From: Borrelia sp. A-FGy1
GTDB lineage: Bacteria; Spirochaetota; Spirochaetia; Borreliales; Borreliaceae
Assembly: GCF_014084025.1 (NCBI RefSeq)
Contig: NZ_CP043682.1
Coordinates: forward strand, 401,582 to 465,581
Length of the DNA: 64,000 nucleotides
Direction of reading: 5' to 3'
A program made the position numbers and the translations under genes. The notes under the pieces were generated by a model. It saw only the letters and a program-made list of their open reading frames with translations. It did not search any database and was not told the origin of the DNA. The stretch's first letter is position 1, and each line of letters opens with the position of its first letter. This document shows positions 34,598-59,592 of this stretch, piece after piece.

Positions 34598-34710
34598 CCC
34601 TGGCAATAACCTACTCTCCCGCGAACTCGCAGTACCATCAGCGAATAAGAGCTTAACTTCTGTGTTCGGAATGATAACAGGTGTTTCCTCTTTTCTTTAA
34701 CCACCAGGGT
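34598..34710 (-). rRNA. rrf: 5S ribosomal RNA
   Basis: The minus strand reads a complete 5S of about 113 bases. It is bounded by the terminal helix ACCCTGGTGG at the 5' end and CCAGGG at the 3' end. Internal segments such as CCGAACACAGAAGTTAAG are diagnostic. It lies about 27 bases after the 23S 3' end. The 3' helix is followed by TTTTTATTTTT on the minus strand, which should stop transcription before hpk1. Confidence 0.95.
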
Positions 34711-34737
34711 ATTTATAAGGAAGACAAAAATATGGCC

Positions 34738-37670
<2,933 letters not shown>

Positions 37671-45044: not shown

Positions 45045-46583
<1,539 letters not shown>

Positions 46584-56674: not shown

Positions 56675-56724
56675 ATCACCAAAATCAACAAGGATGTGCT
56701 TAGAATCACCAAAATCAACGAGGA
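56675..56724 (+). repeat. 20-bp direct repeat in the dnaA leader
   Basis: ATCACCAAAATCAACAAGGA (56675-56694) recurs as ATCACCAAAATCAACGAGGA (56705-56724), with one mismatch and a period of 30 bases. The second copy supplies the ribosome-binding site of dnaA, and the first supplies an identical site before another ATG at 56694. That ATG opens a short out-of-frame reading overlapping the dnaA start, but the spacing to its site is too short for good initiation. Confidence 0.75.
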
Positions 56725-56730
56725 CAAAGA

Positions 56731-58185
56731 ATGCAAGAAGGAAAAAATATATGGAGTTTAATTATAGCAGAAATAAAAAAAGAAATATCTGAAGAAGAAT
56801 TTTACATATGGTTTGAAAATTTATACTTTATAAATACAGTCAACGAAAATATACAAATATCTACTCCAAATTCTTTCCATAAAAATCAAGTAGAAAAAAG
56901 ATTCTCTAAAAGAATAAAAGAAATCTTAGTTGAGAAAGGTTACAGAAAAATTAACATCGAATTTACAAATCAAAAAAATGAACCTAACAATAAGAATTTA
57001 GAATATAAAAATATTGCATTAGACAAGATTTCAACACAACAAGGTTTATATAAAAAAAGAGAAACCAATAAAAGCTACATTAAAAACATAACAGAAAATA
57101 CAAATAAATATATAATACAAGAAGAAATTCATAAAAAATATAAAAATCCATTTCTAAAAAAAAAGTATTTATTTGAAAATTTCATCATAGGACCAAATAA
57201 TAAGCTTGCATATAATGCAAGCTTATCAATTGCAAAAAATCCTGGGAAAAAATACAATCCATGCTTAATTTATGGTGGAGTTGGCCTCGGGAAAACGCAT
57301 TTACTTCAAAGCATAGGAAACAAAACAGAAGAATTACATAAAGAACTAAAAATACTGTATGTAACCGCTGAGAACTTTTTAAATGAATTCGTAGAAAGTA
57401 TAAAAACAAACGAAACAAAAAAATTTAAAAAGAAATATCGATACTTAGATATGCTTTTAATAGATGATATTCATGACCTACAAAAAAAAGAAGGGATACA
57501 GGAAGAACTTTTCCATACATTTAATGCTCTTTACGAAGAAAACAAACAAATGGTATTTACATGCGACAGGCAGCCCTCAGAACTCACAAACTTTACAGAT
57601 AGATTAAAAAGTAGATTTACAAGAGGACTGAATGTAGATATATCAAAGCCTAATTTTGAGCTAAGAGTAGCTATTATAGAAAAAAAAGCAGAAGAGGATG
57701 GCATCAAAGTTTCAAAAGATATTCTAAACTTAGTTGCTAGAAAAGTAACAACAAATATAAGAGATTTAGAAGCGGCGGTAACAAAATTAAAAGCACACAT
57801 AGACCTTGAAAATATAGAAATTGACACTAACATAGTAGACAAAATAATTAAAGAAATAATAGTTTATGAAAGGGATGATGCAAATACACATAACAAAATA
57901 AATACTGAAAACATAAAAAAAGTTATACTAAGAGAATTAAAACTCACAAATAAAGATATTGAAGGAAAAAGTAAAAAGCCAGAAATTACAAAAGCAAGGC
58001 ACATTTATGCATATCTTCTGAGGAATTTTACAGAACTTTCAACAATTGAAATAGGAAAAATCATTGGAGGGAAAACTCACTCAACAGTGCTTTACTCAAT
58101 AAATAAGATTGATAAAGAAAGAAATAACGACCTAGAAATTAACAATTTAATCATAGAACTTATGAACAAAATCAACAAAAGCTAA
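56731..58185 (+). CDS. dnaA: chromosomal replication initiator DnaA
   Basis: DnaA opens the origin and loads the helicase. The 484-residue protein has domain I (WSLIIAEIKKEISEEEFYIW), a Lys/Asn-rich linker, AAA+ motifs YGGVGLGKTHLLQSI and LLIDDIHDLQKK, and domain IV with the DNA-box-binding GGKTHSTVLYSINKI. GAGGAC precedes the ATG. It is divergent from gyrB and followed by the repeat-bearing gap and dnaN. Confidence 0.98.
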   Translation: MQEGKNIWSLIIAEIKKEISEEEFYIWFENLYFINTVNENIQISTPNSFHKNQVEKRFSKRIKEILVEKGYRKINIEFTNQKNEPNNKNLEYKNIALDKISTQQGLYKKRETNKSYIKNITENTNKYIIQEEIHKKYKNPFLKKKYLFENFIIGPNNKLAYNASLSIAKNPGKKYNPCLIYGGVGLGKTHLLQSIGNKTEELHKELKILYVTAENFLNEFVESIKTNETKKFKKKYRYLDMLLIDDIHDLQKKEGIQEELFHTFNALYEENKQMVFTCDRQPSELTNFTDRLKSRFTRGLNVDISKPNFELRVAIIEKKAEEDGIKVSKDILNLVARKVTTNIRDLEAAVTKLKAHIDLENIEIDTNIVDKIIKEIIVYERDDANTHNKINTENIKKVILRELKLTNKDIEGKSKKPEITKARHIYAYLLRNFTELSTIEIGKIIGGKTHSTVLYSINKIDKERNNDLEINNLIIELMNKINKS

Positions 58186-58431
58186 TAAAATATATAAAAA
58201 GTAAAATACTTTTGAACAAGTTAAACAAATAATTCGACAAAAAAAACAGATAATTAGACAGACAATTAGACAGATATTATTCTTTTTAAAAAATATAAAT
58301 ATGACGAATTAGACAATTCGACAATACTCTATTAACACAACTACTAACAAATATAAAAGAAAAAAATTGCAAAAATACTAAACTTATAAAAATAGGGAAA
58401 TAATAATATAATAATTAAGGAGGGTGAAAGT
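58186..58431. other. probable replication origin, dnaA-dnaN gap with iteron-like repeats
   Basis: The 246-base AT-rich gap contains five copies of ATT[A/C]GACA at 58232, 58253, 58265, 58308 and 58316, all on one strand in two clusters, with an AT-rich stretch between. No perfect TTATCCACA DnaA box is seen; TTAACACAA near 58334 is a weak relative. Genes diverge in their majority around this point. In hand-counted 60-base lines G is at or below C before it (57301: 7 G, 8 C; 58501: 6 G, 8 C) and well above it later (59101: 14 G, 3 C). Published mapping places the B. burgdorferi origin in this gene cluster. Confidence 0.7.
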
Positions 58432-59592
58432 TTGGATGAAAAATTTATACTATGCGATACAGAACAAATTTCTAATGAAATTGACAAAGCAAAAAGCATA
58501 ATCATAAACAGAAACATAAACGATATTTGGAGTTCAATATTACTTGAAATAAAAAACTCTAATCTTAAAATAAAATCAACAGACAGGAATATATTCTTTG
58601 AAAGTACTATTCCTATTGTCTCAGTAGAAAATTTCAAGGTATTAATAAATGCTTCAAATTTCTCTGATGCAGTAAAGGCTCTAAACCTATACAATGAACT
58701 AAGAATAACATTTGAAGAAAATGAAAACAAACTAAGTATAATTGGAGAATCCGGAAAAAGTGACAATAACGAGATAAATGATCATTTAAGCGAACCAACT
58801 TTTTCTAATGATGAAGTTGAGAGCTATAATTGTGAGATAAATGGAGAAATTTACAACTTTACGGTTGAAATAAGTCAAAATGAATTCAAGAAAATTATAA
58901 ATAAAGTTTCATTTGCAGCATCATTAGACGAATCTAAAAATGTTTTAAATGGAGTCTACATTACAAAGGAAAAAGAATCTAGAATAATATTTGTTGCAAC
59001 AAATGGACATAGAATGTCTATATACAAAACAGAATTAATAGCTGAAGAAGATATTAATTTTATAGTCCCTGTAAAGATGTTTAATCTATTAAGACAAATG
59101 ATAACGGGAGAAGGCATGGTAAAAGTTAAAGTTTCGGATAAAAAATTTTATGTTGAATTTAATAACTATAAAATAGCATGCAGCCTTATAAGTGGAAATT
59201 ATCCTGATTATGAAAGTATCGTACCAAAAGAACAACAAAATAAATGTTTAACTGAAATTAGTATATTAAAGGATAGGCTTTCAAGAGTGAGTTCCTATAC
59301 AGATAAAAGGTCCAAAAAGGTGATTTTAAACTTTTTGGTTGATCAACTAAGACTTGTTGCAGAAGATTTGATTACAGGGAGAAGAGGAGAATTCTTCGTA
59401 CAAGTACCTAATTACGAATATGAAGGAAATAAAGAGGTCATAGCTATTAATGGCGCTTACCTTTCTGAGGCAATTAGTGCATTTGATAATTCAAAGTTAG
59501 AAATAAAATTCAGTCAAGGAGATGTATTAAAACTAAGTGAACCTGGCAATGATGACTTTATGCATTTAATAATGCCCATGACTCTAAATTAA
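58432..59592 (+). CDS. dnaN: DNA polymerase III sliding clamp (beta)
   Basis: The 386-residue clamp protein starts with TTG at 58432-58434, behind a very strong AAGGAGGG site. It has the three-domain beta-clamp layout. ILNGVYI-type strands, for example SKNVLNGVYITKEKESRIIF, and VPVKMFNLLRQMI-like and SGNYPDYESIVPKEQ motifs are typical, and it ends LIMPMTLN. An insertion-like polar loop (GKSDNNEINDHLSEP) lies near residue 105. It precedes recF by 14 bases. Confidence 0.97.
   Translation: MDEKFILCDTEQISNEIDKAKSIIINRNINDIWSSILLEIKNSNLKIKSTDRNIFFESTIPIVSVENFKVLINASNFSDAVKALNLYNELRITFEENENKLSIIGESGKSDNNEINDHLSEPTFSNDEVESYNCEINGEIYNFTVEISQNEFKKIINKVSFAASLDESKNVLNGVYITKEKESRIIFVATNGHRMSIYKTELIAEEDINFIVPVKMFNLLRQMITGEGMVKVKVSDKKFYVEFNNYKIACSLISGNYPDYESIVPKEQQNKCLTEISILKDRLSRVSSYTDKRSKKVILNFLVDQLRLVAEDLITGRRGEFFVQVPNYEYEGNKEVIAINGAYLSEAISAFDNSKLEIKFSQGDVLKLSEPGNDDFMHLIMPMTLN

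Follow-up and report, generated by a model that had tools for sequence, protein, structure and literature searches.

A predicted lineage-specific DnaA box, AATYNRACA, at the chromosomal origin of the Borreliaceae

The gap between dnaA and dnaN in Borrelia sp. A-FGy1 is, with high probability, the chromosomal replication origin (oriC), and the short direct repeats within it are predicted to be lineage-specific DnaA boxes with the consensus AATYNRACA. The Borreliaceae appear rather likely to have rewritten the DnaA word from TTATNCACA to AATYNRACA by a coordinated change of recognition helix and box, with the ancestral geometry of the basal unwinding system (BUS: paired DnaA boxes with adjoining DnaA-trios) kept. 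If correct, an essential protein and its DNA site would have switched recognition specificity naturally across a whole family. The layout also supports the BUS as a conserved core of bacterial origins, whose geometry is retained even when the box sequence is replaced. Gel shifts with recombinant B. burgdorferi DnaA have shown binding to the 240-bp dnaA-dnaN gap (PMC9879097). The borrelial box itself was still to be identified according to Krusenstjerna 2022 (PMC9879097), which hinders the search for the DnaA regulon and for origin parts in Lyme and relapsing-fever spirochaetes. A literature search found no published Borrelia DnaA box or DnaA ChIP-seq, although an earlier statement in the 1999 paper or in BUS-survey tables is possible. 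The present analysis supplies a precise 9-mer, a pair-plus-trio architecture shared by the two genera, and a set of residues that most probably underlie the switch.

Location of the repeats and of the origin

All coordinates refer to the window, a 64,000-nucleotide stretch of the chromosome. The initiator gene dnaA (56731-58185, + strand; Pfam DnaA_N, Bac_DnaA and Bac_DnaA_C, with an altered domain IV) and the sliding-clamp gene dnaN (58432-59592, + strand; Pfam) flank a gap of 246 bp (58186-58431). A sequence-only reading of this DNA had described five same-strand ATT[A/C]GACA octamers between the two genes, and five exact ATTMGACA copies are indeed present on the + strand at 58232, 58253, 58265, 58308 and 58316 (span 58232-58323). 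That reading had also seen no canonical DnaA box, in agreement with our failure to find an exact TTATNCACA near the gap. The scan for canonical boxes gave just two single-mismatch sites, both inside dnaA, and this route was set aside. The repeats likewise do not match the canonical TTWTNCACA, from which positions 1-3 and 6 deviate in 36/36 Borreliaceae genomes.

Strand composition had been said to change sign close by, and GC skew flips at the gap. In stretches covering 900,000 of the 918,483 bp of the chromosome, the cumulative minimum falls not elsewhere but about 1 kb from the gap, at 57242 within dnaA, on a curve that hardly changes between about 56.5 and 58.75 kb. Since the chromosome is 918,483 bp long, its midpoint lies at approximately 57,661. 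Both the skew minimum and the midpoint are no more than about 1 kb from the gap, which occupies the position by which an oriC is recognized, beside dnaA and dnaN at the GC-skew minimum. In 1999 Picardeau reportedly mapped a bidirectional origin to the center of the B. burgdorferi chromosome. The B. burgdorferi oriC is the same locus in the sister genus, and two hypothesized boxes have been mentioned there (Picardeau 1999; Krusenstjerna 2022).

A nine-base consensus shared by two genera

The comparison of the gap spans 36 Borreliaceae genomes, 18 from Borrelia and 18 from Borreliella, with Borrelia recurrentis, B. persica, Borrelia sp. BU AG58 and Borreliella japonica among the named relatives. 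DnaA of the window genome is 84-93% identical to that of its 17 congeners and 76-79% identical to that of the sister genus. The repeats, whose absence from sister species had been raised as a possibility, have sites kept in 36/36 genomes in the generalized form AATYNRACA, a 9-mer with one extra A to the left of the octamer. The octamer ATT[A/C]GACA, though the most frequent form in Borrelia, was rejected as the conserved unit; Borreliella mostly has other ATYNRACA forms, its boxes being mostly AATTAAACA and AATCAAACA.

Three sites, beginning at 58264, 58307 and 58315, are universal (36/36 genomes). Over the resulting 108 site-genome pairs, positions 1-3 (AAT) and 7-9 (ACA) are invariant (108/108), position 4 is T in 95 and C in 13, position 5 can be any of the four bases, and position 6 is exclusively A or G. 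AATYNRACA aligns with the E. coli box TTATNCACA, including the free fifth position, which is unimportant for specific binding in E. coli (PMC5043019). Invariant columns make up 19/26 in boxes versus 19/150 elsewhere in the gap (Fisher p = 7e-10, indicative only because the species compared are related). Column counts overstate independence for the same reason, and most of the weight in the comparison is carried by the two genera together with the outgroups.

The universal sites are box 3 (AATTAGACA, 58264-58272), which reads AATTNRACA in 36/36 genomes, box 4 (AATTAGACA, 58307-58315) and box 5 (AATTCGACA, 58315-58323), all on the + strand. The co-oriented copies beginning at 58219, 58231 and 58252 are less strictly conserved or confined to a clade. 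Box 0 (AGTTAAACA, 58219-58227) is a degenerate sixth copy whose position is conserved in the family and whose sequence is looser, box 1 (AATTCGACA, 58231-58239) is often AATTCATCA or AATTTATCA in relatives, and box 2 (AATTAGACA, 58252-58260) is restricted to the clade of the window and one further Borrelia.

Between boxes 3 and 4 lies a segment of 85% AT (58273-58306). The earlier description of two clusters around an AT-rich core holds for the existence of this core and for its length; its sequence is not conserved. Box 3 and box 4 are 43 bp apart in Borrelia and 42 bp apart in Borreliella, start to start. Because this length of about four helical turns is kept and the sequence is not, the segment reads as a phasing spacer. 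It was not favored as the melting site, given its length-only conservation and the location of the least stable DNA beyond the trios; the segment is probably a spacer, and a more plausible place for melting is the trio tract that runs onward from 58329.

A predicted box pair followed by putative DnaA-trios

Box 5 starts 8 bp after box 4 in every genome, and the two share one base. They are followed after exactly 5 bp by a run of CTA/TTA triplets in 36/36 genomes, which in the window is CTA TTA ACA CAA CTA CTA (58329-58346, + strand). One or two boxes and then trios within the allowed spacer, the arrangement expected of a BUS, are present in every one of the 36, with box 4 as the upstream box of the pair. 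The triplet tract is perfect in Borreliella (typically TTA CTA CTA TTA CTA CTA, with 6/6 triplets fitting in all 18 genomes) and degraded in Borrelia (commonly CTA CTA ATA CAA CTA TTA; 4/6 fit in the window). Six in-phase YTR triplets occur in 18/36 genomes versus 0/72,000 composition shuffles. According to PMC8287927, a BUS has at least three consecutive trios, with the central A on the trio strand, and most commonly a spacer of 13 bp. All 18 Borreliella and most Borrelia have such runs of three or more trios, and in the window two trios are separated from two more by an interruption; the 13 bp from box 4 to the trios match the commonest spacer. The composite ATTNRACAATYNRACA-N5-YTAYTA is found exactly once per genome in 36/36 Borreliaceae, where the reversed control gave no match, and in 0/190 genomes of other Spirochaetota. 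This distribution argues for an oriC with a lineage-specific DnaA box.

The layout resembles that of the Bacillus subtilis oriC BUS (DnaA-boxes 6/7 plus DnaA-trios), which also has two co-oriented boxes, a short spacer, repeated CTA/TTA triplets, a 13-bp spacer from the upstream box, and a dnaA-dnaN location. The two differ in the box, TTATCCACA there and AATYNRACA here, and in the partly degraded trio tract of the window. Beyond the triplets, a nearest-neighbor profile places the least stable DNA of the gap at 58347-58420, with the least stable 40-mers starting at 58374-58380. This segment is a probable extension of the unwinding region and likely also the place of the dnaN promoter.

Many other Spirochaetia carry canonical boxes in the dnaA-dnaN gap. 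At 9/22 outgroup loci (L049, L051, L052, L054, L058, L060, L063, L064, L067), exactly 12 nt separate a canonical or near-canonical box from a triplet run, and most of these elements sit in the dnaA-dnaN gap. The box is TTWTCCACA in eight of the nine and TTACCCACA in L058; one example reads TTTTCCACA-aaatcacaggcc-CTA TTA CTA TTA CTA CTA. Several have a second, weaker box about 8 bp after the first, so that they share with the Borreliaceae the order of box, second box and triplets. They differ in the word TTWTCCACA, in a 12-nt spacer where Borrelia has 13 nt, and in a DnaA with GGRDHTT. Judged from sequence, the Borreliaceae element is the same element as this canonical-box BUS, with a different word.

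Changes in the DnaA recognition helix

DnaA residues were numbered as in E. coli by alignment to 1J1V. Base contacts have been assigned to positions 399, 423, 432-435 and 438-439 (PMC5043019), and 3/8 DNA-contact residues differ in B. burgdorferi DnaA (Krusenstjerna et al.; PMC9879097). Domain IV of the window DnaA contains GGKTHSTV at residues 446-453, with T449 and S451 in place of E. coli D433 and T435. The recognition motif is GGKTHST in Borreliaceae versus GGRDHTT in 22/22 outgroups. Positions 433-436 and 439 are T-H-S-T-Y in all Borreliaceae DnaA proteins, whereas the outgroups have D-H-T-T at 433-436 (22/22) and H439 (21/22). Position 423 is I or V in Borreliaceae (P423I/V relative to E. 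coli) and T in the outgroups. Borreliaceae also have K at position 399 (R399K); because two outgroups carry K399 as well, this change is not diagnostic and was rejected as a switch residue. Among the residues that contact the trios in B. subtilis, the aligned window DnaA keeps N187, I193, K222, E223 and E228 and has V for I190 and K for R202.

A comparable case is the oriC of Thermotoga maritima, in which a lineage-specific box, the 12-mer AAACCTACCACC, is accompanied by corresponding alterations in domain IV of DnaA. That box is unlike the Borreliaceae box in being longer and of another sequence, and other DnaA residues are changed. The trio of T. maritima has a supporting role only (PMC10316083).

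Proposed events at the origin

The suggestion that a divergent Borrelia DnaA recognizes these repeats is supported by their conservation and the skew, and strongly so by the homologous layout and the altered recognition helix. Domain IV would bind the co-oriented AATYNRACA boxes, reading bases that can be proposed by analogy with B. subtilis. The pair at 58307-58323 would then seed an ATP-DnaA filament growing rightward, a polarity suggested by the same analogy, and this filament may engage the DnaA-trios (3'-GAT/AAT-5') on the strand opposite the CTA/TTA triplets, from 58329. The duplex would open toward dnaN, where the least stable 40-mers sit, if melting occurs at the site expected from B. 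subtilis. More DnaA could be loaded or stabilized by the left boxes (58219-58272), which lie some four helical turns upstream. The box would have moved from the ancestral TTATNCACA along with the recognition helix, through D433T, T435S and H439Y plus R399K and P423I/V. Counting against this model are the lack of AATYNRACA in the DnaA-bound dnaX-ebfC 5' UTR, the uneven presence of the box in the gyrB-dnaA gap, the imperfect trio tract of the window and the 13-nt spacer of Borrelia where outgroups have 12 nt.

Alternative explanations for the repeats

DnaA could bind these sites mainly to regulate transcription of dnaN, or of dnaA-dnaN, with the origin using other sequences. The gap is the upstream region of dnaN, and DnaA regulates replication genes elsewhere (PMC9879097). 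Against this explanation stand the pair-plus-trio geometry, which is common to canonical origins, the skew minimum and midpoint at the gap, and the uniqueness of the cluster. ATTMGACA occurs 56 times on both strands of the 900 kb of chromosome scanned, and at least two copies within 250 bp are found solely in the dnaA-dnaN gap. No second octamer cluster was present in these 900 kb, nor were box pairs 7-12 bp apart, which might serve titration or regulation, found on the chromosome outside the gap. We consider it improbable that regulation is the main role of the sites; regulatory and origin roles are, moreover, not mutually exclusive.

Binding by another nucleoid or regulatory protein in place of DnaA (EbfC, BpuR or similar) is highly improbable. 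Borrelia does employ several DNA-binding proteins, and binding by DnaA extends to DNA that lacks AATYNRACA. The dnaX-ebfC 5' UTR is bound by B. burgdorferi DnaA with approximately micromolar affinity in published gel shifts, and AATYNRACA is absent from it in 20 genomes. As an independent confirmation of the box this region failed, and the box therefore cannot account for all reported DnaA binding. However, EbfC reads GTnAC (PMC9879097), which is missing from AATYNRACA, and the E. coli box register, the distance to the trios, and a helix that changes with the box would be unexpected for another protein.

The sequence-only reading had likened the repeats to iterons, and short direct repeats in one orientation beside AT-rich DNA do recall plasmid iterons bound by a Rep-type initiator. 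The neighboring initiator gene is nevertheless dnaA, the dnaA-dnaN interval lacks the Rep-type gene that an iteron array would lead one to expect, and the canonical-box relatives show the ancestry of the element; an iteron origin is hardly credible, and we take the label to be the wrong analogy for what are predicted to be the DnaA boxes of a BUS. AT-rich spacers commonly contain short repeats, yet chance or low sequence complexity is of negligible probability as the source of the present ones: when the 246-bp gap was dinucleotide-shuffled 20,000 times, 19,419 of the shuffles contained no copy, 579 one and 2 two, with three copies reached in none, and the positions are fixed in 36 genomes of two genera, with the composite in 0/190 other spirochaete genomes.

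Additional sites and flanking sequences

The gyrB-dnaA gap contains one AATYNRACA form in 13/18 Borreliella and 1/18 Borrelia genomes. In Borreliella (loci L027-L043), at a distance of about 60 bp 5' of the dnaA start, a conserved AATTTAACA adjoins a TATACT-like element in 13/18 genomes; it may be a site of DnaA autoregulation in this genus. A direct repeat, ATCACCAAAATCAAC[A/G]AGGA, is present in two copies 29 bp apart (56676-56724) immediately 5' of the dnaA start; it is common to the window and its nearest relative and decays in others. The dnaN start codon (58432) is apparently TTG in Borrelia and ATG in Borreliella. In all 20 genomes in which the dnaX-ebfC region was inspected (L146-L165), dnaX is preceded by GGACTGGAAGGTAGCAGCGGTAAG, a sequence that probably belongs to the small SRP RNA. 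The rRNA genes of the window are on the - strand, with a single 23S-5S (34598-37668) and a single 16S (45047-46582) about 7.4 kb apart.
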